A stretch of 64,000 nt of DNA from positions 1 through 64,000 of the forward strand of contig JAUIBK010000008.1 of the NCBI GenBank assembly GCA_030428205.1, read 5' to 3'. The notes beneath the pieces are model-generated. The model was not told the origin of the DNA. It worked only from the letters and a program-made list of their open reading frames with translations, and ran no database searches. The DNA is from a bacterium. Its GTDB lineage: Bacteria > Bdellovibrionota_C > UBA2361 > RFPC01. Each line of letters opens with the position of its first letter. The stretch's first letter is position 1. A program made the position numbers and the translations under genes. Positions 33,893 through 46,502 of the stretch are shown piece after piece.

Positions 33893-33969
33893 TACATAAC
33901 GCGAAGTACGCGAGGGACGCGAAGTCGTCTTTCCCCTCTTCGCGTCCCTCGCGTACTTCGCGTTATGTA
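33893..33969. repeat. Family B GCGAAGNNC hairpin, copy 3, overlapping the btuC stop
   Basis: Perfect 32-bp arms at 33893-33924 and 33938-33969 with a 13-base loop: TACATAAC, then GCGAAGTAC, GCGAGGGAC, GCGAAG and the complement. The btuC stop codon (33963-33965 on the minus strand) lies inside the right arm, so the element supplies the end of that gene. It could serve as the operon's terminator hairpin. Confidence 0.92.
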
Positions 33970-34940
33970 CTCTTCCTCGGCCCCGACAACAAAACCCAAA
34001 CAAAAAACGGCCCGCCAAGTAAAGAGGTAATCACACCAACAGGAATCTCATACGGAGCAATAAGGGTACGTGACAAGAGATCACACGCCACAAGAAATCC
34101 TCCACCGAACAAAAGGAGTGCAGGAAGAAGCGCACCGTGGCGAGCTCCCGCAAGCAAGCGGCAGATATGTGGAACGATTATCCCAATGAACCCGATAGGA
34201 CCACACACAGAAACAATCACGCCGATCATCACAGAGATAACAATAAGAAAGCGGCGCTTTTCTTGAACAATGTTTACCCCTCTTGCACCGGCGAGTTCGT
34301 CGCCAAAACTGAGAAGATCAAGCTCATGTCTTTTCAAGAGCGCATACAAGAACGCTCCCCCAACGAAGCAAGCAACAAGCACCGCCTGTGAAAAACCTAC
34401 GACATCAAAACTTCCCATAATCCAGCGCAACGTACGGAGTACGGCTGAAAAATCACTGATATATTGAAGAAAGAGTATCAAGCTCCCCAGAAACAGATTA
34501 AGGACGACACCAACTAAAAGAAGCCCATTTCCAGAAAGCAGCGATCGGTTATAGGAAGCAACGAGCAAAAGAGAGAGGGTCACCCCCACCCCAAGTAACG
34601 AGCCAAAGAGCGCTCCCCAGAGGAGACTAGAAGAAACTATGAGGCCAATATGAAGTGCAATAGCTTGCCCTAATGCCGCACCACTAGAGATACCAAGCGT
34701 ATAAGGCGAAGCAAGTACGTTACGAAAGAGAGACTGAAAGACAGCACCTCCAAGTGACAATCCAGCTCCGACACAAAACGCTAAACACACACGGGGAAAG
34801 CGAAGTTCCCAAAAAATCTTTCCCTCCGGTGTACTCTGAGCAATATCAGTGAGAGCACTCAGGGAAATTGTCGTTGCGCCGAAGAAGAGACTTACAAGAA
34901 GAACGAGCAGAAAGACAGCAAAGAGAAAGAGGCTCTTCAT
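33963..34940 (-). CDS. btuC: BtuC-like cobalamin ABC permease
   Basis: 325-aa FecCD/BtuC-family inner-membrane permease with about ten hydrophobic helices. Family motifs: LRFPRVCLAFCVGAGLSLGGAVFQSLFRN near the N-terminus, SPYTLGISSGAALG, ELAGARGVNI (the coupling helix contacting the ATPase) and GPIGFIGIIVPHICRLLAGARH, DLLSRTL and PVGVITSLLGGPFFVWVL. It forms the channel dimer of the B12 importer. It overlaps btuD by four bases and ends inside a palindromic element. Siderophore permeases share the fold; the upstream cobalamin riboswitch settles the substrate. Confidence 0.92.
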   Translation of the reverse strand: MKSLFLFAVFLLVLLVSLFFGATTISLSALTDIAQSTPEGKIFWELRFPRVCLAFCVGAGLSLGGAVFQSLFRNVLASPYTLGISSGAALGQAIALHIGLIVSSSLLWGALFGSLLGVGVTLSLLLVASYNRSLLSGNGLLLVGVVLNLFLGSLILFLQYISDFSAVLRTLRWIMGSFDVVGFSQAVLVACFVGGAFLYALLKRHELDLLSFGDELAGARGVNIVQEKRRFLIVISVMIGVIVSVCGPIGFIGIIVPHICRLLAGARHGALLPALLLFGGGFLVACDLLSRTLIAPYEIPVGVITSLLGGPFFVWVLLSGPRKST

Positions 34941-35722
34941 CGTTCCCCCATGCTCGGGTAAAGCAGCGCTCCTGAGTCATCTGGCAGGGGAAGCTTAGTA
35001 AAATCGACCTCAAAGAGCGATTCTAAACACTCAGGTTTTGAGAACTCACTAACCGTTCCATCAAAAAAGAGGGAGGAATTTTTTAATGCAAGCACCCTCT
35101 CAAATTCACGTGTAGCAAAGGTGAGATCGTGGGTAACAACCAGCATTGTAAATGACTTCATCTCTTGTAACTTGCGAAGAAGGCTTACCACATCACAGAG
35201 GTGCTTTGGATCAAGAAAGCTTGTCGGCTCATCAAGAAGTAATATAGAGGGGTTATTGACTAGCGCACTTGCAATAAGAGCTCGCTGCCTTTGTCCTGCG
35301 CTTAGTTCAGCAAGAGGGACTTGAAGTAATGAGGTAAGATCTGTGTACTCGACAGCTCTTTGAATTTCACGACGGTCTTCTTGGGAGAGAGACGACAGTG
35401 GAGAGAGGCAAGCATAGCGACTCACTTCAAGGAGATCTTGGACACGAAAGTCAAACGGCACGTGAATTCCTTGAGGAACGTACCCAACTTCCTGCGCTTG
35501 CTTGCGTGGGTCACTTAAAAGTTCACCACGGTAGAGAATCCTTCCTCTTTGAGGAGAGAGGATTCCGAGCAAGCACCTTAGGAGAGTTGTTTTTCCTGCC
35601 CCATTGGGACCGACAAGCGATACGTGCTCACCTTCTTGAAGAGCGAACGAAACATCTTCAAGAATGGGCGTATGTCCATAAGCAAAGGAGAGGTTTGAAC
35701 ACTCAAAAACAGAAGATCCCAT
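34937..35722 (-). CDS. btuD: BtuD-like cobalamin ABC transporter ATPase
   Basis: 261-aa ATP-binding subunit. Walker A GPNGAGKTT (about 38-46), Q-loop YVPQG, ABC signature LSAGQRQR, Walker B ILLLDEPTSFLD and H-loop VVTHDL are all intact. Residues between the Q-loop and signature (SRYACLSPLSSLSQEDRREI) match the iron/B12 uptake class. The gene is packed against btuF (next base) and btuC (four-base overlap), consistent with one polycistronic message under riboswitch control. Confidence 0.92.
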   Translation of the reverse strand: MGSSVFECSNLSFAYGHTPILEDVSFALQEGEHVSLVGPNGAGKTTLLRCLLGILSPQRGRILYRGELLSDPRKQAQEVGYVPQGIHVPFDFRVQDLLEVSRYACLSPLSSLSQEDRREIQRAVEYTDLTSLLQVPLAELSAGQRQRALIASALVNNPSILLLDEPTSFLDPKHLCDVVSLLRKLQEMKSFTMLVVTHDLTFATREFERVLALKNSSLFFDGTVSEFSKPECLESLFEVDFTKLPLPDDSGALLYPSMGER

Positions 35723-36634
35723 TTATCCTCCTATTGAAAAATCAAGATGAGGATAAAGCACCTGAGCAAGAAGACGTTGCGCTTTGACAAACCGTGGCCC
35801 TGGAACATGAAAAGATGCATCTTGAAGATAGAAAACATTCTCTTCTCTTACCGCTCGTAGCTCAGAGAATGCTTGCCACTTCTGAAGAAACTCTTTGCGT
35901 GAATAGGCTGGCGCAGAGGGATCGGCAATTTGCACAATAATATCAGGATCAAGTTGTAAAAGCCCTTCGGTTGAGAGTCCTTGGAGACTGGTCGTTTGCT
36001 CGTGATAAATATTCGTTGCATGCACTCGAGCCAAGAGATCACTAAAAAAACCATCACGGCCTGAAATATACAAGGTACGCAAAGTCCCGGGGTCATCTCC
36101 AAGCAGGATCAGAGCCTTACGAACTCTCTTGTCCTCGCCAAGTGAGTTCCCCACAAACTGGGTCAAAGCCTCACTTTGCGACTGAAGCGTTTTGCGCTGT
36201 ATAGCAGCTTGCTTGGCTACTCCACACCGAGCACCTACAAGAGTGAAAGACTTCAAGATACCATCAATACCTCGGTGCTCTATAGCGTGTACGGAGATAC
36301 CCAGTCGCGTCAGTTTTTCATAGGCCACCTTATGTTCTTGTAACAAAAAAACATCTGTTGGCCGTAAGGCGAGTACCTGTTCATAGTTTGGATCGATATA
36401 TCCGCCAACACTTTTGACACTATGATTTGCCTCAAAGGGCATATCATAGCGACTAACTCCAACCAGATTCTGAGCCAGTCCAAGAGAGACAATCACCTCA
36501 GATATACTTGGTGCAAGGGAAACGATACGGGGACAGACATCACACAGGGCGAGAGAATTCCCACTTAGGACGAAAAATACACAGACAAGTAGTTGTCTGT
36601 GTATTTTTCGTCCTAAGTGGTTACCACTGAACAC
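35723..36634 (-). CDS. btuF: BtuF-like periplasmic cobalamin-binding protein
   Basis: 303 aa. Signal-like hydrophobic segment (LLVCVFFVLSGNSLAL), then a helical-backbone type III substrate-binding fold: RIVSLAPSISEVIVSLGLAQNLVGVSRYD, GGYIDPNYEQVLALRPTDVFL, LSTEGLLQLDPDIIV and the C-terminal VPGPRFVKAQRLLAQVLYP. It delivers B12 to BtuCD in the periplasm. The GTG start at 36634 follows TAGGAG, which overlaps the btuB stop; no better start is visible. Bases 36561-36620, encoding residues about 5-25, are a perfect 28-bp-arm palindrome, so the signal peptide is written almost wholly by a hairpin. See the separate entry. Confidence 0.9.
   Translation of the reverse strand: MFSGNHLGRKIHRQLLVCVFFVLSGNSLALCDVCPRIVSLAPSISEVIVSLGLAQNLVGVSRYDMPFEANHSVKSVGGYIDPNYEQVLALRPTDVFLLQEHKVAYEKLTRLGISVHAIEHRGIDGILKSFTLVGARCGVAKQAAIQRKTLQSQSEALTQFVGNSLGEDKRVRKALILLGDDPGTLRTLYISGRDGFFSDLLARVHATNIYHEQTTSLQGLSTEGLLQLDPDIIVQIADPSAPAYSRKEFLQKWQAFSELRAVREENVFYLQDASFHVPGPRFVKAQRLLAQVLYPHLDFSIGG
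36561..36620. repeat. Perfect palindrome over the btuF signal-peptide codons (family E)
   Basis: Arms CCACTTAGGACGAAAAATAC plus ACAGACAA (36561-36588) and the exact complement (36593-36620) with a 4-base loop. The length is 60 bp, a multiple of three. In the mRNA it would form a 28-bp stem starting about 14 bases into btuF. It may be an inserted palindromic element or a translation/attenuation control structure between btuB and btuF. No second copy was seen in the window. Confidence 0.9.
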
Positions 36635-36646
36635 CCTGCGATTCTC

Positions 36647-38740
36647 CTATATGTTTACTTTGACACCACCGTACGCGGCCACACCAGCTGTTCCATAGCC
36701 AAACACCTCTTGATACTCCTTATCAAAGAGGTTCTCAACACGCGCAAAGAGTGAGATCTCATCAGAAACTTGATACGAACCAAGGAGATCCACAAGGGTA
36801 TAGCCAGAGAGCTCCACTCGCTCAGCTGGAAATGTGTTGAAGTTTTGATCATCACGATCCCCAACGTACCTGACACGAGCTTGCACAGAGGCCCTCGCAT
36901 CGAGGAAGGTATAATGAAGAGAAGACGAGACTTGCGACCGGGCACGGCGTAGAAGGTCGTCACCTGTCGACTTATCTTCTGTATCAAGAAGCGTAAAATC
37001 AATAGAGAGATCAAGCCCCTCAACAAGATTCGCTCTTGCAAAAAACTCAAAACCCTCGATTTCAGCTTCGTTGATATTCTCAAAAAGAAACGTTCCAGAG
37101 TTAAACGTTACCAACTGGTCGATGTCATTTCTAAAGTATGTTCCTCCAACCGTAACAGCATCACCAAAGAGCGTCTGCTCGATTCCAAGCTCCCAACTCG
37201 TACTCTCTTCTGCTTCAAGCATCGGATTCCCAAAACTGGAATAAAGCTGAAAGAGCGATGGAGACTTGTAGCCTGTACTGACTGTACCAAGAAACCGAGT
37301 CCCAGTTTCAGCAATGGTGACTACTGGAGCGACTCGAAAGGTAACTTCGCTATCAGTTCGAGAGTGATCGTCCACGCGAACACCAAACGAACTTGCAAGC
37401 CACTCAGTGGCCTCTACAAAAAGGTCTGCATAATATCCATTTGTTCTGGCATCAGTTGGGCCAAAATTGGAACTATAGGGACCAAAAGCTCCATCAGAGG
37501 AAAAATTACTGCTGGCCTTTTCCTGTTCAGTCTCTATCCCAAAAACGAGCCTTGAGGATTCTGTAGGATGAATGACATTCTTAAGATCCCACTTAATAAG
37601 TTTGCCACGGTATTGGCTACGCTGCGTATCAAGAGGATGCGCTGCGTCAGGATCGTTATCATCATTAAACTTATGATTCGTAAGAGAAACTCCGTAAACT
37701 TGCTTTAATGCACCATCAAAGAGATCAAGAGCGGCTTCCGTTCGAAAGAACGTTTCACGAGTGTCAAGGAGCCGATTCGGATCATCTCCTCCAACACCTC
37801 CATCATTATCGATATCAGCCTTGGAGTCGTTGTGGCGAAAAACAACATTAAGATCAAGCTCGTTGAGAGGATGTATCCCCCCTTGAAAAGAGAACGAAGT
37901 TCGCTCGTACTCATCGTCTTCGCTATTGCCATCTTCTTCCGCTGCGGCCGAAAAACTACCAGAGTCTTCACGTGATACTCCAAAAGAAAACTCTCCTCCC
38001 TCTGCACCTGAGCGCACCTCTGCACTCTCTACAAAAGTCTCAAAAGATCCACCTTCAACAGAGACACCGATCTCAGTCTGAGGCGTACCTTTTTTTGTGG
38101 TAATATGTATGACCCCACCAATAGCATCCGAGCCGTAGAGTGTGCTCTGAGAACCACGTAAGATCTCGACCTGTTCAATGTTCTCTAAGCTCATATTGGC
38201 AAAATTAAAGAAGCGAGCATTAGAGCCGGGATTATTGATCTCGATTCCATCGAGTACGACCAGGGTATGCTCAGAGTTTGCACCACGCAGAAACACAGAG
38301 GCATTTCCTCCTCTTCCACCTGATTGCACCACGTCAACACCTGGCACATCTCGCAAGAGATCCAGAAGATAAACTTTTTGTGAGCGCTCAATGTCTTCAG
38401 CGGTAATAACTGTTACAGAACTACCAACTTTCTCGGCGGGAGTCTCAAAGTGGTGCGCAGAGACGACTACTTTACGAGTATTCTCATCAGATGTTGCTCG
38501 TGATTCAGCAGAAGTTGTCATAGGAAAAACGCAGCACAGAGAGGCTGCTGTTATACCTCCCGCAAATGAAAATGCCGCTGACTTCAATAAGCATAGGCAC
38601 TTCTTGTGGAAAGGCCCTGATCGGGCCTTATCGCTATCTGGCGGGAGGTATGTGCCGTCCCTCTGGGGGATACTCCCCGCCCTCGGCGCTCGTTGAACCG
38701 GAAATTTCAAGTGCGGGGAGTATAGATAGAGCTTTTTCAT
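36647..38740 (-). CDS. btuB: BtuB-like TonB-dependent outer-membrane cobalamin receptor
   Basis: 697 aa. Plug domain with TonB-box-like TRKVVVSAHH, then VGSSVTVITAEDIERSQ, LLRDVPGVDVVQSGG, VFLRGANSEHTLVVLDGIEINNPG and LYGSDAIGGVIHITTKKG, followed by a 22-strand-type barrel ending in LFARVENLFDKEYQE and a terminal beta strand. The upstream cobalamin riboswitch and btuFDC downstream identify the ligand. The ATG at 38740 has an excellent AAGGAG. Codons 7-63 are an in-frame element (38552-38724): without it the leader reads MKKLYL + TAASLCCVFPMTTSA, a normal signal peptide. A TTG within the element could also start a shorter leader (KSAAFSFAGGITAASLCC...). Confidence 0.94.
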   Translation of the reverse strand: MKKLYLYSPHLKFPVQRAPRAGSIPQRDGTYLPPDSDKARSGPFHKKCLCLLKSAAFSFAGGITAASLCCVFPMTTSAESRATSDENTRKVVVSAHHFETPAEKVGSSVTVITAEDIERSQKVYLLDLLRDVPGVDVVQSGGRGGNASVFLRGANSEHTLVVLDGIEINNPGSNARFFNFANMSLENIEQVEILRGSQSTLYGSDAIGGVIHITTKKGTPQTEIGVSVEGGSFETFVESAEVRSGAEGGEFSFGVSREDSGSFSAAAEEDGNSEDDEYERTSFSFQGGIHPLNELDLNVVFRHNDSKADIDNDGGVGGDDPNRLLDTRETFFRTEAALDLFDGALKQVYGVSLTNHKFNDDNDPDAAHPLDTQRSQYRGKLIKWDLKNVIHPTESSRLVFGIETEQEKASSNFSSDGAFGPYSSNFGPTDARTNGYYADLFVEATEWLASSFGVRVDDHSRTDSEVTFRVAPVVTIAETGTRFLGTVSTGYKSPSLFQLYSSFGNPMLEAEESTSWELGIEQTLFGDAVTVGGTYFRNDIDQLVTFNSGTFLFENINEAEIEGFEFFARANLVEGLDLSIDFTLLDTEDKSTGDDLLRRARSQVSSSLHYTFLDARASVQARVRYVGDRDDQNFNTFPAERVELSGYTLVDLLGSYQVSDEISLFARVENLFDKEYQEVFGYGTAGVAAYGGVKVNI
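38552..38724 (-). mobile_element. Family C MITE-like element, copy 2, in frame within btuB
   Basis: 173-bp TATA-ended element, inverted relative to the copy at 17519-17763. Its ends TATACCTCCCGCAAATG and (complement) TATACTCCCCGCACTTG form imperfect terminal inverted repeats. Assuming duplication of a TA target, 171 bp (57 codons) were added to btuB without a frameshift or stop. The encoded segment includes YLPPDSDKARSGPF, close to YLPPESDSSHSGPF encoded by copy 1 in the same orientation. Confidence 0.88.
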
Positions 38741-38817
38741 TTGCTCTCCTTTGGAATGTTAAGAAAGGTATCAAATATACAGTTACTCTGATCCACGAGA
38801 GTAAGAGGCAAAAAGAT

Positions 38818-38985
38818 ACAGATAGGTCTTCTGACTTAGAGCAGAACTGAACATCTGACCTTCCCAAGAGTACATAAGGTCTCAGTGGTCGTTTAAAGAT
38901 GCTCCCGAAAACTCATCACAGCGGCGGGCCCGTAGCGGATTTTCACCGCACTTCCCTTGAATCTGTACAGTGTTTGAGTATCAAA
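38818..38985 (-). promoter_or_regulatory. Cobalamin (AdoCbl-type) riboswitch
   Basis: On the minus strand the leader shows the conserved order GGGAAGTGCGGTGAAAATCC, ACGGGCCCGCCGCTGTGA, a CCACTGAG box, TGGGAAGG and the closing AAGTCAGAAGACC. This is the core of the B12 riboswitch, including the B12 box (GCCGCTGTGA-like). It ends about 80 bases before the btuB ATG; that gap holds a small hairpin (TTACTCT ... AGAGTAA) that could act in the expression platform. Binding of adenosylcobalamin is expected to switch off the btuB-F-D-C operon. Confidence 0.95.
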
Positions 38986-39012: not shown

Positions 39013-40851
39013 TTATGTAGATTGCAGTAAGCGTATTGCAAGTTGCGGCAAGAAGTTCGCTTGAGAGAGCACAGCAGCACCCGCTTGCTGAAGAATCTGG
39101 TCTTTCACTAGGGCAGCCGTTTCACCAGCCACATCAACGTCCTTAATTCGACTTTCTGCCGCTGCATAATTTTCTACCGTAGAGCCTAAGGTATTCAGAG
39201 CAGAGCTCAGACGACTTTGTACAGAACCTATTCCAGAGAGTTCTTCGCTAATTCGTAAGAGGACTCCGTCTAATGTACCAAGCGCTTCGAGTGCTCCCTC
39301 TTCTGTGGAGAGATCAAGCAAATCAATCGTATTACTGTCTTGCCCTAATCCTAAATGCACACTCCCTCCTACAATACCATCCATACCGATCACATCAAAA
39401 AGCCCATCTCCATCAAAATCACCAAGTGTATATGACGCAGGGATGCTCGCTAATGTTGAAGTGACACCAGAAGGGTTGAGCGAATCTCCATTACTAAAGA
39501 ACACGCTCACATCCCTACCTAAGCCAAGAAGATCGAGGTGCCCATCTATATTCACATCAGCAAACTCAAGCTTGGATAGAGAATGATCAAAGGTGATAGT
39601 ATCAGCAACTGAGAACTTTCCCGAATCATAGCTATACTGCGTCGCTGTGCTTCCTGTGTAGGTAAAGACATCGTCCTTTCCGTCTCCATTTATATCTCCT
39701 ATTCCTACACCACCAATGCTACCAGCAATCTTGGACTCTGAGGCAAATGAACGATCTCCATTACTACGGAAGGCAAATGCAGAAAGTTGATCGGCAACGA
39801 TATCGTCGATACCATCACCATCAAAGTCTCCAACAACAACCTCTTGCGCAGCATTGACACTTAAGTTTGCAATATCACCCATGCTAAGTGTCCCATCTCC
39901 ATTTCCGAAGATAGCCGCAAGAGTATTTGTGATAGAAGATCTGGCAATAGCGAGATCGTTTTTTCCATCTCCATCGAAATCTCCAACCTTTATATCTTCA
40001 ATAGATTCAAGAGCAGCACCGAGAGAACTATGCGTCACGGTGAACGTTCCATCCCCATCCGCTGTAGCGACAACAATATCACCGGAATCATCACCAGTAA
40101 TTATATCGGCTAAGCCATCACCGTCCATATCTGCAACGGCAAGTGCAGTGGCCGTATCAGATTTCCCCATAGAAAAAGCGGTAGATGCCGCCCCAAACGT
40201 CCCATCACCATCACCAAGTCGTACACGAATATTACCACTCTCAAGATAGAGCACATCGAGGTTACCATCTCCATCAACATCGCCGTGCTCAACGTCGTTG
40301 GAACCTGTCCCTGAAAATGAGCTATAAAAATCAAACTCTCCACTTCCAACGGTGCGCGATAAGCTTGAACCAAGAGAAAACCCAACCGTTCCATTATCAC
40401 CAATCCCAGCTTGAATATTAAGCCTTCCAAATCCCGCCCCTAAAAGACCGAGCCCATTAAAAGAAGTGCTTTCTACAATACGGTTGTATTCCTGAGAAAG
40501 CGCTTGTGCTTCTTCGTTAATTGATTCACGTTGTGAACTCGAAAGTGATCCATTTGAGGCACTCTCGGCGAGCTCCTTGAGTCGATGAGCAATATCAGTA
40601 AGCTGCCCCACTCCACCTTCGGCGATATTAAGTAGGCTGATCCCATCGTTTGTATTTCGAATAGCTTGTTGAAAAATTCGTTGATTCGCTCGAAGCGAAG
40701 AGGATATAGCAAGACCAGCGGCATCGTCGCTTGCCCGGTTAATTCGCATACCGGTGCTCAGTCGCTCAAAACTGCGCGACAATCGATCTTGAGTTTTTGT
40801 CAGCTCGCGTTGAACGCCAAGCGCGATCACCGACGAGCTAAAACTAACCAC
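39013..40851 (-). CDS. fliC: Flagellin with an inserted seven-bladed FG-GAP/VCBS propeller
   Basis: 612 aa. Residues 1-165 are a canonical flagellin D0/D1 region (LTKTQDRLSRSFERLSTG, INRASDDAAGLAISSSLRAN, TNDGISLLNIAEGG, EYNRIVESTSFNG) and 520-612 the C-terminal D1/D0 (IGSVQSRLSSALNTL, AAESRIKDVDVAGETAALVK, ILQQAGAAVLSQAN). Between them (about 185-500) lie seven calcium-loop repeats of the form DxDxDGxxD at about residues 191, 241, 291, 342, 386, 432 and 478, spaced 44-51, as in integrin-type FG-GAP beta-propellers. The sixth loop is altered (DVNIDGHLD). The propeller would project from the filament surface. GTG start. No signal peptide, as expected for type III export. Confidence 0.95.
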   Translation of the reverse strand: MVSFSSSVIALGVQRELTKTQDRLSRSFERLSTGMRINRASDDAAGLAISSSLRANQRIFQQAIRNTNDGISLLNIAEGGVGQLTDIAHRLKELAESASNGSLSSSQRESINEEAQALSQEYNRIVESTSFNGLGLLGAGFGRLNIQAGIGDNGTVGFSLGSSLSRTVGSGEFDFYSSFSGTGSNDVEHGDVDGDGNLDVLYLESGNIRVRLGDGDGTFGAASTAFSMGKSDTATALAVADMDGDGLADIITGDDSGDIVVATADGDGTFTVTHSSLGAALESIEDIKVGDFDGDGKNDLAIARSSITNTLAAIFGNGDGTLSMGDIANLSVNAAQEVVVGDFDGDGIDDIVADQLSAFAFRSNGDRSFASESKIAGSIGGVGIGDINGDGKDDVFTYTGSTATQYSYDSGKFSVADTITFDHSLSKLEFADVNIDGHLDLLGLGRDVSVFFSNGDSLNPSGVTSTLASIPASYTLGDFDGDGLFDVIGMDGIVGGSVHLGLGQDSNTIDLLDLSTEEGALEALGTLDGVLLRISEELSGIGSVQSRLSSALNTLGSTVENYAAAESRIKDVDVAGETAALVKDQILQQAGAAVLSQANFLPQLAIRLLQST

Positions 40852-40944: not shown

Positions 40945-40973
40945 ATATCGACAATAACCTCCTGAATACTTTA
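40945..40973 (-). promoter_or_regulatory. Candidate sigma-28 promoter of the flagellin gene
   Basis: The minus strand reads TAAAGTAT, 13 bases, then GTCGATAT, compared with the sigma-28 consensus TAAAGTTT-N11-GCCGATAA. The boxes are good but the spacer is two bases long. It lies about 95 bases upstream of the flagellin start. Confidence 0.4.
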
Positions 40974-41894: not shown

Positions 41895-43328
41895 TTATAG
41901 TACCCCCGAACAATCCATATCAATCGTCATCACTCCTTCAACAAGGGCTTGGTTCTCAGCTCGAATCTCTAAAGCACGTTGCTTTCCTTGAGCAATCTTC
42001 TTTCTTACTTTCTTTCGTATAGTACGCCGCTTCTGTTTTGTGAGGCGCATTCCTTGTTTTTTGGCACTTAGCCGCGCCTTTCTTATTCTGGCTCTCTTCA
42101 TTGCCTTTCCGTGAAGCTCAACGGTATAAAACGCGATCTCCAGGAGACGGTCAGTATGGCTAATGTATGAATCAAGAATATGCGAGCTATCAATCTGGAT
42201 ACATTCTACTTCTGAATCACAAACAGTAACGAACTGCGGAAGCCTCCAACTATCTATCCACCCCAGGTTTTGCTCTTCACGAGCCTCAAAAAGAATGAGA
42301 TCAAGCTCAGCTTTCGAAATTTGAGGATGATTGAATTGCCGAATACGTTGAACGAGATGAATAATTTGATCCTCCTGAACCTTTACTCCCTGGTCGAGTC
42401 GAGTAAGATCAAGAGTTTGATCAACCATTTCACACGCTATTCCGCTACAATCGGGAAATCCATCTTGATCTTCATCGATAGGGGTAAACACGCACTGTCC
42501 TTCAACACACCGGTCCTCGGTACATTCATCTTGGTCATTACATACGATCTCATGCGCAATATCTTGGAAGACTCCTGTGAGATCTTCTGTACCGAATCGA
42601 AAATAGGTACTGAGAGGACGCGAAGCGATCTCCTCTCGCATAAAGGCAACCCCCTCTTCGTAACATTCAAGTGGATCCGTGGTGTTTTCTCCATAATGGA
42701 TTGCATAAATCTCTGTTCCAAGAGATCGAGCTTCTGAAGCCTTCGCTGAAGCGAACTCTTTGGCCAAAGCACAATCACACGGCGTATCGCTACAATTTGC
42801 TATCGTCCAACCAGGAAGGTTTTGTTCTCCGTCACCGAGTAACATAAGGATATGTCGCTTGTTGGGATCGCCGTTGGTGTTAAATTCATCTTGTGCCACG
42901 GCAATTCCTTGCGCCATGCTCGTCCCACCATTTCCAAACTCAGGAAGATGGTGGGGACTATCAATAACTTGTCTCAGATATTCGTAATCATACGTTAGGG
43001 TGGTGAGCATTTCCGCATGCTTGTAAGACACTCCTAACCACTCATACTCATTATCATAGGTATCCTCAGCATAATTACTTGCATGAAAACTATTATATCT
43101 TCCAAGTGCAACTTTCGGTGCAGCAGACGTAGCTTCAAAAAACTCTAAAAGTGCTCGAGCGGCATTCTTTTCATTTTGAATATCTTCAACCTCCATACTG
43201 CCAGTAAGGTCAAACATAATAACAATCTCGACGTTGCTCGCACCAAGGCACATCTGCCCATGTTGAGCAATGCTGGTCTGAGCCAAGAAGAGACATACTG
43301 ATATGAGAAAAACACTTAAGTACTTCAT
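41895..43328 (-). CDS. Secreted von Willebrand factor A domain protein
   Basis: 477 aa. Signal peptide (KYLSVFLISVCLFLAQTSIAQ). vWA domain about 30-270 with metal-site motif DLTGSM (D40), the second ligand in GNGGTSMAQ and LMLLGDGEQN; some Cys pairs (CSDTPCDC). Then an EGF-like/calcium-loop piece CNDQDECTEDRC...DEDQDGFPDC and a helical, highly basic C-terminus (about 395-460, RARIRKARLSAKKQG, KQKRRTIRKKVRKK). vWA domains bind proteins through the metal site. It is the last gene of the minus-strand TadE/TadG/pilin set, so it may be a pilus-associated adhesin. Confidence 0.88.
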   Translation of the reverse strand: MKYLSVFLISVCLFLAQTSIAQHGQMCLGASNVEIVIMFDLTGSMEVEDIQNEKNAARALLEFFEATSAAPKVALGRYNSFHASNYAEDTYDNEYEWLGVSYKHAEMLTTLTYDYEYLRQVIDSPHHLPEFGNGGTSMAQGIAVAQDEFNTNGDPNKRHILMLLGDGEQNLPGWTIANCSDTPCDCALAKEFASAKASEARSLGTEIYAIHYGENTTDPLECYEEGVAFMREEIASRPLSTYFRFGTEDLTGVFQDIAHEIVCNDQDECTEDRCVEGQCVFTPIDEDQDGFPDCSGIACEMVDQTLDLTRLDQGVKVQEDQIIHLVQRIRQFNHPQISKAELDLILFEAREEQNLGWIDSWRLPQFVTVCDSEVECIQIDSSHILDSYISHTDRLLEIAFYTVELHGKAMKRARIRKARLSAKKQGMRLTKQKRRTIRKKVRKKIAQGKQRALEIRAENQALVEGVMTIDMDCSGVL

Positions 43329-43372
43329 ACTCCTACTCCTGCAACAACACGCGAGTGAGATTCGTGTTCATC

Positions 43373-43396
43373 TATATTATGTAAATATTTTACAGA
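43373..43396. promoter_or_regulatory. AT-rich dyad upstream of the vWA gene
   Basis: TATATTATGTAAATATTTTACAGA lies 45 bases upstream of the vWA start. The TGTAAA...TTTACA dyad recurs almost unchanged at 50452-50476 and in looser form at 46756-46770. This suggests a binding site for one regulator of the pilus locus, with low certainty. Confidence 0.35.
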
Positions 43397-43421
43397 TAGG
43401 TGCTCTAAGCAAGTCACGCTT

Positions 43422-43670
43422 TCAAAGGCACTCGATACTCCCCCCAAAGCCAAGGCCTTCCCCTCCGGCATTACACGGCAGCGCTGCGCCAGTCACAGAA
43501 GAGGTGAGATCGGGAGAGACAACCCCTATCGACTGAGTTGCTCGAGTACCAGCGGCAAACCTCATCGCCTCAGAAGCGAAGAGGGCTACAACAAGAAGTG
43601 CGGCAACACAAATGGCATACTCTGTCATGGAAACACCAACTTCAGATTTCAGTTTCTTTTCTCTGCTCAT
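43422..43670 (-). CDS. Short Flp/TadE-type pseudopilin
   Basis: 82 aa. EVG|VSMTEYAICVAALLVVALFASEA: Gly12 precedes the cleavage site and Glu lies at +5, followed by a hydrophobic helix. The mature part is short with a Cys pair (PCNAGGEGLGFGGSIEC). The size and layout fit a Flp-like pilin or a minor pseudopilin processed by a TadV/CpaA-type peptidase. Its ATG overlaps the TadG-like stop by four bases. Confidence 0.8.
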   Translation of the reverse strand: MSREKKLKSEVGVSMTEYAICVAALLVVALFASEAMRFAAGTRATQSIGVVSPDLTSSVTGAALPCNAGGEGLGFGGSIECL

Positions 43671-45736
43671 AAGACAACCTCAGCCTGAATAAATCTTTCA
43701 TGAAAGATCCGGTCTGCCAGCGATGAAATCGATGGAGCAGTTCCCGTTAAGAGAGCTTCCCAATATCTTTGAAAACATGCTCCAGAAAGCGACGGGCCAC
43801 CACAGCCAGGAAAAGCGCTTGAAGGTTGAATGACATATACCTTGTTGTCAGTCACATCTGTTCGAAACGCCTGGTTGAAATTTTGTTCGACCAGTGGATC
43901 TGCATCAGCATCACTTGTAGGGAGAAATACCAACGTAATCTCTCTGTCGAGCATCGTATCAACCACCGCTCCAAGAGCCGCTATCTCCTGGGCACTCTCG
44001 AGGCGTTTTGAAGTAACGAGTAAAACCCCACTATTTCTTAACTCTGCAGGGAAAAGCGCTCGTTGAGCCGGGACAGGCTGCGTACCAAAACCAGTTTGAA
44101 CAGGATTAGGGCCCATAAGATTTCCAGGATACGTATACGGTTGCAGAGAACCGTCGAGCTCCCCGGATACGTACCGGAGAAACGTATGGAGATCTCCGCG
44201 GTATGTTGGATCATTTCCGGTAGTGGCATCAGAATCATCTGGATCAAACCCCTTGTTACAGCTGAAGGAAGAACCAGACACATCATACGGGCACGATTCA
44301 AACGTACCGAGCACACGTACCGTTTCTTGTGCCGTCATTCCCTGAGTGAGCTCAGCACCCGCAACGAAGCTTTGCGCGCGAGCTCCTCCTCCTCCAGTAT
44401 AGTCAGGCGCTACACTATCTCTCGCTAGAAAAAACCCATCTTGTTGGGGCTCAAACGAGGCCTGATCTGGGTGATTCACGGCAGCATCTTCAACAGTAAA
44501 GATCATATCGTTCGGATTAGGATCTGAAAAATACGCATGCCAAGTATCAGCATGCTGCATCATGGTAATTCGACTATGGATGGCATCCCTTCGATCATAG
44601 CCAACAGTACAATTCTCAAATGGACAGAGATATCCACCAGCGTTATCTACTGGAAGCTTGTCAGCACCAGGCAGAAGTGGATTAAACGCGGAAGGCTTTA
44701 CGTTCATCGCCGGAATACGGAAAAATGGCGCAGCTAAATCTTCACCGTACCCGACGAGCTGTACGGGAGGGTTCGGATCGACGCTCCCCGAGGTAGGATA
44801 ACTATAAGGGGCATTATATGGAGGAATAAGGAGCACCTGTGTTCGTTTTCGATACATCTCCAATCGAGTCAATCGAGCAACAACTGACTCAAGAAAAGTA
44901 TTTCGGACAGCAAGATAGGGATTCATAATATGCGTGAGCATCTCTCGACTATCTACGCTTCCGGGTCCAAGCGCGGGAAGTTGTGGAATAGTCCCCCAGC
45001 TACCAGTTTGTGCACCTTGAGCAAAGCGAAATGGCACGTTGGTTGTCAGATCGAATGGATCGAAGGCAAAATCTTCAGAGAAACGAAAACGCTCATCAGC
45101 TGCTTCCCATTTCACACGGAGCTCTGGAGCTATTCCTACAATCAACCCATCAAACGCCTCATTGGGTGGAAAGAAGCGATAAACAGCTTTTCCAAGCACA
45201 TTATGATCGTCTGTTACAAAACCATCGACATCAAGTCGCACCTCGCATGCCATGTATTGATTATGCTCTGCTTGGCTCCAAAAGCTTGCATTCGGATAAT
45301 AATCATCAAGCGCTGTGTCTTCTAGATTCCCCCCGACCTTACAGTTCGGGCAGGTTGGAAAATTGAGAATCAGGCTACTAACGTTTTCGTTATTACTATC
45401 GAGAAATGGGGCTGAGTTGGGATCGGTAGGATCCGATTCAACCGAAGGCACTATCACTCGCAACTGGCTGATAGTGACTTTTCCAGGGATACTTTGCTCT
45501 TGCAAGGCACGTTGCGCAATCTGCTCAAGGGCATTGGGCACAATCGGCATAGTATCTAATCCAGCTCGGCATACCTGAATCGCTATGCGATCGGCAATCA
45601 CGCGAGCTTGCTTTGATTGTAGTACATCAAAAACTAGAGCAAGGATGATGAAGGTAAGTGATGCAACAAAGACTCCTCCCAGAATCAGCACGACTCCCTG
45701 CTCTTGCTTGGCACGGCAACAATACTTTTTTCTCAT
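43667..45736 (-). CDS. TadG-like pilus assembly protein
   Basis: 689 aa. N-terminal QGVVLILGGVFVASLTFIILALVFDV is the membrane anchor typical of TadG (Tad_N-like). The rest is a large periplasmic region with many Pro/Asn/Asp and at least ten Cys. Its end (GVLLVTSKRLESAQEIAALG, REITLVFLPTSDAD) has an alpha/beta pattern that could be a degenerate vWA fold, as in TadG C-termini. ATG 45736 follows GGGAGG with good spacing and is preferred over a longer frame to 45805. Translationally coupled to the pilin gene. TadG proteins help anchor or extrude the Tad pilus. Confidence 0.75.
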   Translation of the reverse strand: MRKKYCCRAKQEQGVVLILGGVFVASLTFIILALVFDVLQSKQARVIADRIAIQVCRAGLDTMPIVPNALEQIAQRALQEQSIPGKVTISQLRVIVPSVESDPTDPNSAPFLDSNNENVSSLILNFPTCPNCKVGGNLEDTALDDYYPNASFWSQAEHNQYMACEVRLDVDGFVTDDHNVLGKAVYRFFPPNEAFDGLIVGIAPELRVKWEAADERFRFSEDFAFDPFDLTTNVPFRFAQGAQTGSWGTIPQLPALGPGSVDSREMLTHIMNPYLAVRNTFLESVVARLTRLEMYRKRTQVLLIPPYNAPYSYPTSGSVDPNPPVQLVGYGEDLAAPFFRIPAMNVKPSAFNPLLPGADKLPVDNAGGYLCPFENCTVGYDRRDAIHSRITMMQHADTWHAYFSDPNPNDMIFTVEDAAVNHPDQASFEPQQDGFFLARDSVAPDYTGGGGARAQSFVAGAELTQGMTAQETVRVLGTFESCPYDVSGSSFSCNKGFDPDDSDATTGNDPTYRGDLHTFLRYVSGELDGSLQPYTYPGNLMGPNPVQTGFGTQPVPAQRALFPAELRNSGVLLVTSKRLESAQEIAALGAVVDTMLDREITLVFLPTSDADADPLVEQNFNQAFRTDVTDNKVYVIQPSSAFPGCGGPSLSGACFQRYWEALLTGTAPSISSLADRIFHERFIQAEVVL

Positions 45737-45752
45737 GCCACAAACCTCCCCA

Positions 45753-46502
45753 CTATCCGATAAAAAAAGATTTTCGTTTGATAACAAGTAACGAATTTGC
45801 CCCATCTCCAGCTACCATGCGTAAGAGACTCAAGAATGGGTTCAACAGTGTATTACTCGGCCGATACTCGCATTCAACACCTACAAACTGACGGCTATAG
45901 GTTGGAGAACCTATCATCCCTGCCGAGCTATCAAGATACGGAAAGGGATCAATGTTTTTACACGCAAGACATCCTGCTCCATCTGCATCATTTGGATTAC
46001 ACGGGTAACGAACACTTGAACCAAGACTCTGCTTCATTGATTGATGTGCGTACACAAGCGCGTAGGTATAATGCGCTGGAAGATCCACATGATCATCGAT
46101 CAGAAAGGTGTCATCGGCAACATCATCATAGTAGCTCGGCACTTCTCCTTCGAGTCCAGGGGATGCGAGCAACGCTGTCAATCTACCACTTGGAACTGCG
46201 CCAAAATGCCAATCCTGAATATCCGAGAGCACCTCTGATCCGATACGTTCAGTTTGTCCGCGGGTAAGAGCTAAGCGAGAGCTTGTCACGGCCTGAGAAA
46301 GGCTCGTACGTGCATTTATCGTGGTGGTGATAAAGAGGATAAAAAAGAGGAGCGCAAGAAGAAGTGGAAGAAAGATGGCCACTTCAACCATTACAGAGCC
46401 AATTTCATTCTTCTTATCCGCAGCAAAAGGATATCGGCTCAACCTTACATGAAGGAATCCGCTTTCAAAAAAATGCTGAAACAACTGAAACGCAAAAAAC
46501 AC
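45753..46502 (-). CDS. TadE-like pseudopilin
   Basis: 249 aa. NEIG|SVMVEVAIFLPLLLALLFFILFITTTINAR is the class III prepilin pattern (cleavage after Gly, Glu at +5) of TadE minor pseudopilins. The periplasmic remainder has three Cys-containing turns (YPCNPND, GCLACKN, GVECEYR). The GTG start at 46502 lacks a ribosome site; a later start near residue 23 is possible. First gene of the minus-strand set TadE, TadG, pilin, vWA; overlapping reading on to the TadG-like start at 45736 leaves 16 bases. Confidence 0.75.
   Translation of the reverse strand: MFFAFQLFQHFFESGFLHVRLSRYPFAADKKNEIGSVMVEVAIFLPLLLALLFFILFITTTINARTSLSQAVTSSRLALTRGQTERIGSEVLSDIQDWHFGAVPSGRLTALLASPGLEGEVPSYYDDVADDTFLIDDHVDLPAHYTYALVYAHQSMKQSLGSSVRYPCNPNDADGAGCLACKNIDPFPYLDSSAGMIGSPTYSRQFVGVECEYRPSNTLLNPFLSLLRMVAGDGANSLLVIKRKSFFIG

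Follow-up and report, generated by a model that had tools for sequence, protein, structure and literature searches.

Foreign domains in flagellins are known mainly from proteolytic flagellins. FG-GAP was absent from the ten commonest inserted domains of a flagellin survey that lists 61 domains in all and may include it among the others (PMC5595980), and a 2020 review gave 14–15 flagellin paralogues as the highest known number (PMC7175107). Among seven-bladed propellers, integrins carry calcium ligands in 3–4 blades, and in bacterial integrin-type/FG-GAP propellers the calcium motif was reported in all seven (PMC3192720). Our literature search, which covered few subscription papers, returned no published description of FG-GAP/VCBS propellers in flagellins, so that the propeller-flagellin family described here is, as far as we found, previously undescribed.

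The propeller flagellin gene

The window, a 64,000-nucleotide stretch of bacterial DNA, carries on its minus strand (39013–40851) one open frame of 612 amino acids with a GTG start and no internal stop. Residues 1–165 (40357–40851) form the N-terminal flagellin D0/D1 region, with a Flagellin_N match (PF00669, residues 5–137, 1.8e-35, 122.4 bits against a cut-off of 26.6), modelled helices at residues 9–38, 45–99 and 105–129, and a D1 hairpin at 145–161. Residues 512–612 (39016–39318) form the C-terminal D1/D0 region, with a Flagellin_C match (PF00700, residues 527–609, 1.4e-19, 70.6 bits against a cut-off of 23) and modelled helices at 517–538, 542–571 and 576–611. Both ends were matched by solved flagellins. 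The best flagellin model scored 206.6 bits and the model of the hook-associated protein FlgL 70.8 bits, below its cut-off of 127.2, which identifies the protein as a flagellin and not FlgL.

The region between the two ends, approximately residues 168–505 (39337–40350), was matched by FG-GAP_3 in six stretches (5.5e-38, 129.8 bits against a cut-off of 26.9) and also by FG-GAP (1.1e-15); the Pfam scan of this protein returned no peptidase family. A loop-pattern scan located seven DxDxDG..D-type calcium loops, spaced by 50, 50, 51, 44, 46 and 46 residues: DVDGDGNLD (residues 191–199, 40255–40281), DMDGDGLAD (241–249, 40105–40131), DFDGDGKND (291–299, 39955–39981), DFDGDGIDD (342–350, 39802–39828), DINGDGKDD (386–394, 39670–39696), DVNIDGHLD (432–440, 39532–39558) and DFDGDGLFD (478–486, 39394–39420). 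When this region was shuffled 2000 times, the loop count averaged 0.38 and did not exceed 4. The Pfam matches and loop positions bear out an earlier sequence-only reading of this DNA, which had described canonical flagellin ends around seven DxDxDG loops at a spacing of 44–51 residues, and the flagellin-plus-propeller architecture of the gene is near certain.

That reading had proposed structure prediction of residues 1–612 as a check. In the full-chain AlphaFold2 model the flagellin helices and the D1 hairpin were present, together with blades of four strands at pLDDT of about 90; its overall confidence was lower (mean 72.8, pTM 0.56), with the ends and their placement poorly determined, and its alignment had 20 rows, the prediction alignments taking in window and related-locus sequences only. 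The excised domain (residues 160–520) was predicted at pTM 0.80 with seven blades and 27 of the 28 strands. Seven blades between D0/D1 helices were thus recovered, apart from the fourth, closing strand of blade 7, which did not resolve in the models. A segment at the N-terminal side of the propeller, VGSGEF (40333–40350), is similar to the GDGTF turn found just before strand 4 in the remaining blades, and a GxGxF motif occupies this position ahead of loop 1 in 74 of 86 relatives; because of this resemblance and recurrence, we propose that the segment leads into the closing strand and that blade 7 is closed in velcro fashion by an N-terminal strand. In such a topology the chain would enter and exit the propeller at the calcium end, at the 3–4 loop of blade 7, and therefore the calcium face should sit on D1, with the opposite face towards the medium.

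The same reading had called the domain a complete seven-bladed integrin-type propeller. A seven-bladed calcium-loop propeller in the exposed position stands, and the strict integrin type does not: both parts of the FG...GAP cage motif were found in only 1 of the 595 blades of the family, and the window protein has the DxDxDG calcium loop in the 1–2 loop of 7/7 blades, where integrins have calcium ligands in 3–4 blades. By these sequence features the propeller is of the FG-GAP_3/VCBS type and not strictly of the integrin type. Foldseek searches against the PDB returned mostly FG-GAP-like propellers as best matches, including UmbA4, a subunit of KICSTOR, the GlcNAc-binding lectins PVL/PAL, the Agrocybe lectin and CRTAC1, with integrin alpha chains lower down; BBSome subunits were also among the matches.

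The genes around the flagellin gene were also annotated. Directly downstream of it lies a cobalamin riboswitch (RF00174, 80.4 bits, 38804–38981, minus strand), preceded by a TTGACA-N16-GATACT site (39004–38977) and followed by a gene for a BtuB-like TonB receptor (36647–38740, minus strand) and likely B12 ABC transporter genes (33963–36634, minus strand). The riboswitch and the genes after it probably form a transcription unit separate from the flagellin gene. Upstream of the flagellin gene, 41895–46502 (minus strand) encodes a secreted vWA-domain-like protein and TadE/TadG-type pilus-like genes; NCBIfam gave no match for two large genes in this interval.

Relatives across the class

In the source genome (3.76 Mb, 92% complete) Flagellin_N has 19 matches, which include six seven-loop propeller flagellins, the window gene being one of them, and several plain flagellins. 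Flagellins were found in 42 of the 46 species genomes covered for the class, with up to 36 Flagellin_N matches per genome, counts that can include FlgL and fragments; the maximum of 36 was that of genome G002. From 17 genomes we obtained 86 homologues that share the flagellin-plus-propeller architecture and are 595–660 amino acids long. Exactly seven loops were present in 80 of them, and the calcium aspartates were conserved at 96–100% in every blade. G002 contains at least 17 open frames that match at the size of a propeller flagellin, several of them in tandem on one contig, and six further genomes have about ten such matches each. The search of flagellins for FG-GAP/VCBS domains between the ends, suggested by the sequence-only reading, thus yielded 86 homologues in the class and one case elsewhere (L062, below); the class-wide multigene family itself had gone unrecognised in that reading and was found here.

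In a tree of flagellin ends, all 86 homologues and three other sequences formed one group (local support 0.67 for the whole of it) to the exclusion of the plain flagellins, and because they share this group, a single origin of propeller flagellins within the class is likely. A scan of genome contigs returned mostly free FG-GAP proteins and one useful flagellin, L062 (7959–10613, plus strand), an 885-amino-acid protein of a Rhodospirillaceae MAG in which about 250 residues of different sequence break up the FG-GAP_3 repeats. Its ends fall elsewhere in the tree, which marks it as an independent case. No full propeller flagellin was found among 399 genomes of the phylum of the Rhodospirillaceae MAG, 99 of that of Binatia and 96 of that of Nannocystis; scoring was confined to the 3 to 13 best candidates of each genome, so that rare cases may be missed in those phyla. 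The viral contigs gave no propeller flagellin, and no plasmid record covered 80% of the L062 protein.

Flagellins with other exposed domains were seen as well. One flagellin of the source genome (L019, 4551–6494, minus strand) carries PD40 repeats, and together with two further loci it represents flagellins from two families of the class that have a PD40/WD40-like propeller in the same exposed position. In flagellins of 455–481 amino acids from seven loci, the exposed domain has only one or two loops of the calcium type and may be a reduced domain or a different, small one. A 1059-amino-acid open frame on contig C38 of the source genome matches Flagellin_N in part and lacks Flagellin_C.

An RpoB tree placed the lineage weakly (80/65) beside Binatia and Myxococcota; in this tree Nannocystis and a betaproteobacterium stood on a very long branch, probably through a wrong frame or extra sequence in those rows. 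The RpoB gene of the source genome (C62:205372-209727, a matched model region of 4356 bases) lies in an open frame of 1531 amino acids, and because this frame is unusually long, it suggests a lineage-specific insertion.

Variation, expression and export

We examined how variation is distributed over the family. Mean column entropy was 1.48 in the N-terminal end, 2.43 in the propeller and 1.76 in the C-terminal end. Within the propeller, loops 1–2 and 3–4 had mean entropies of 1.33 and 1.57 and no indels, and loops 2–3 and 4–1 were the most variable (3.15 and 3.26) and contained indels. The calcium end of the propeller is nearly invariant and the opposite face is hypervariable; from the topology proposed above, this hypervariable face would point outwards. 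Some pairs of same-genome paralogues shared 90–96% identity in the N-terminal end and about 90% in the C-terminal end versus 31–34% in the propeller, with a sharp step in identity at residues ~160–175 and ~505–515. Overall, the propellers of same-genome paralogues were 33% identical, compared with a class background of 31% between species. In many pairs fourfold sites were close to saturation, in the ends as well as in the propellers. Given this saturation, the divergence of the propellers is not well accounted for by cassette swapping alone; most of it, and most of the sharp step, is explained by old duplications followed by strong purifying selection on the ends, with some local gene conversion. 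In one G002 pair the first 25 codons were identical.

The source genome encodes flagellar FlhA (858.8 bits, above cut-off), clustered with FliA (TIGR02479, 249.7 bits) and neighbouring flagellar genes. A sigma-28-like motif at a single spacing of 17 was found in 13 of 84 upstream regions of propeller flagellins, against 0.31 expected by shuffling, and the propeller-flagellin genes appear from these motifs to be sigma-28 linked. Upstream of the window gene, TAAAG-N18-CGATAT (40945–40973, minus strand) is a putative site of this kind with a spacing one base longer than that of the family.

Translation signals differed between the two kinds of flagellin. ATG starts were used by 33/33 plain flagellins versus 38/84 propeller flagellins (Fisher 1.6e-9), the median Shine-Dalgarno pairing was −8.50 versus −5.85 kcal/mol (p 0.001; −2.8 in shuffled sequences), and pooled ENC was 53.2 versus 57.8, that is, codon bias was lower in propeller flagellins. 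Because the start sites were assigned by rule and the relatives compared are phylogenetically non-independent, this contrast is only suggestive of weak translation of the propeller flagellins. The window protein is probably a minor subunit of the filament, since the plain flagellins in the genome show the better signals in three indirect measures, ATG use, Shine-Dalgarno pairing and codon bias. The sequence-only reading had placed an adhesin or ligand-binding site on each of thousands of subunits, and the part concerning subunit number is probably wrong; ligand binding as such is retained below as the likeliest function.

All 46 genomes of the class contain FlhA/SctV homologues (on contigs C73 and C31 in the source genome), usually of three types: a flagellar type, a non-flagellar type in a small SctR/SctU-like cluster, and a non-flagellar type beside protein-kinase-like genes. 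Even the four genomes that lack a flagellin match have such homologues.

Filament function and comparison with known systems

Our overall reading, which we hold to be somewhat better than an even bet, is that the filament consists of plain flagellin decorated with propeller flagellins, minor subunits that depend on calcium and bind ligands. The D0/D1 ends would leave the cell through the flagellar type III apparatus and become part of the polymerised filament. By homology and prediction, the central 340 residues are a seven-bladed propeller of the FG-GAP_3/VCBS type, each blade of which has a calcium-type loop. Kept unfolded by the low calcium of the cytosol, the chain would cross the export channel, and the propeller would fold outside the cell as calcium fills its seven sites. 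RTX proteins are the model for folding triggered by calcium after export, and by analogy with them we infer the same order of events here; calcium dependence itself, which the sequence-only reading had supposed for a stable filament, is a reasonable supposition. With the calcium face on D1 and the hypervariable face towards the medium, the outward face may bind a ligand, and about ten to at least 17 paralogues per genome, with conserved ends and diverged outer faces, would present many adhesin- or lectin-like binding heads on one filament. More tentatively, and with somewhat less than even confidence, we suggest a filament-borne recognition repertoire in which about ten to tens of calcium-folded propeller flagellins per genome, differing in their outer faces, would let one flagellum recognise many surfaces or partners, some members of the class adding PD40 as a second propeller type.

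Hypervariability can also come from escape from phages or grazers. The strongest rival, which we regard as unlikely though worth serious weight, is an evasion surface, in which a stable scaffold presents an outer face that has no particular ligand and changes so as to elude predators, recognition by a host or phages that bind flagella. Conserved ends and variation concentrated on one face would fit it, and the variable regions of known flagellins have been accounted for in the same way (PMC7018530). However, a seven-site calcium propeller that persists throughout the class, with many paralogues in each genome, has more order than evasion alone needs, and evasion should act first on the abundant plain flagellins, yet these are short (~260–330 amino acids). 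A mechanical role, with propellers packing on the filament surface and altering its stiffness or thickness in viscous or particulate media, seems improbable. Outer-domain contacts are known to modulate motility in viscous media (PMC8931119), but packing surfaces should be conserved among the paralogues of one filament, and the propellers are hardly more alike within a genome than between species. It is still harder to credit that the proteins are exported but not polymerised, as secreted adhesive or matrix proteins whose flagellin ends serve only as export signals: the Vibrio vulnificus flagellin homologues FlaE/FlaF do not build filaments and are linked to biofilm (PMC8306008; PMC6692518), but here both D0/D1 ends are strongly conserved relative to the propeller, as polymerisation requires. 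An assembly artefact joining a flagellin gene with an FG-GAP gene, the misassembly that the sequence-only reading had named as a possible refutation, has no supporting evidence that we found and is ruled out, because the gene is a single open frame and the same full-length architecture recurs in many independent assemblies.

The large families of propeller flagellins across the class suggest that flagella can serve as display platforms for diversified binding domains. Two open questions become testable with them: why multiple flagellins persist in many bacteria, and how a large folded outer domain passes through the export channel, for which calcium-triggered folding outside the cell is a candidate answer.

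Compared with known systems, the propeller shares with bacterial integrin-type/FG-GAP propellers the seven blades, the calcium loop in the 1–2 loop, the glycine in the 3–4 loop and calcium in all seven blades, and differs in lacking the cage motif and in its attached flagellin ends, flagella not being mentioned for those propellers (PMC3192720). The PVL-type fungal lectins (Psathyrella velutina lectin, 2bwr/4up4; Agrocybe lectin, 4tqm) have the same FG-GAP-like fold (Foldseek probability 1.00, E ~1e-10), but they are soluble proteins with known GlcNAc sites and 16–20% identity; the comparison with them concerns the fold. The multi-flagellin magnetococci MO-1 and MC-1 likewise have a greatly expanded set of flagellin genes, many of them arranged in tandem (PMC7175107), with 14–15 paralogues in contrast to the up to 36 Flagellin_N matches of G002, some of which are possibly FlgL or fragments. 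Flagellinolysin and other proteolytic flagellins (FliA(H) of Clostridium haemolyticum, PMC5595980) also carry, in their variable region, a foreign folded domain with a function of its own that the filament displays; there the domain is a gluzincin metallopeptidase, whereas here it is a calcium propeller carried by many diverging paralogues per genome.
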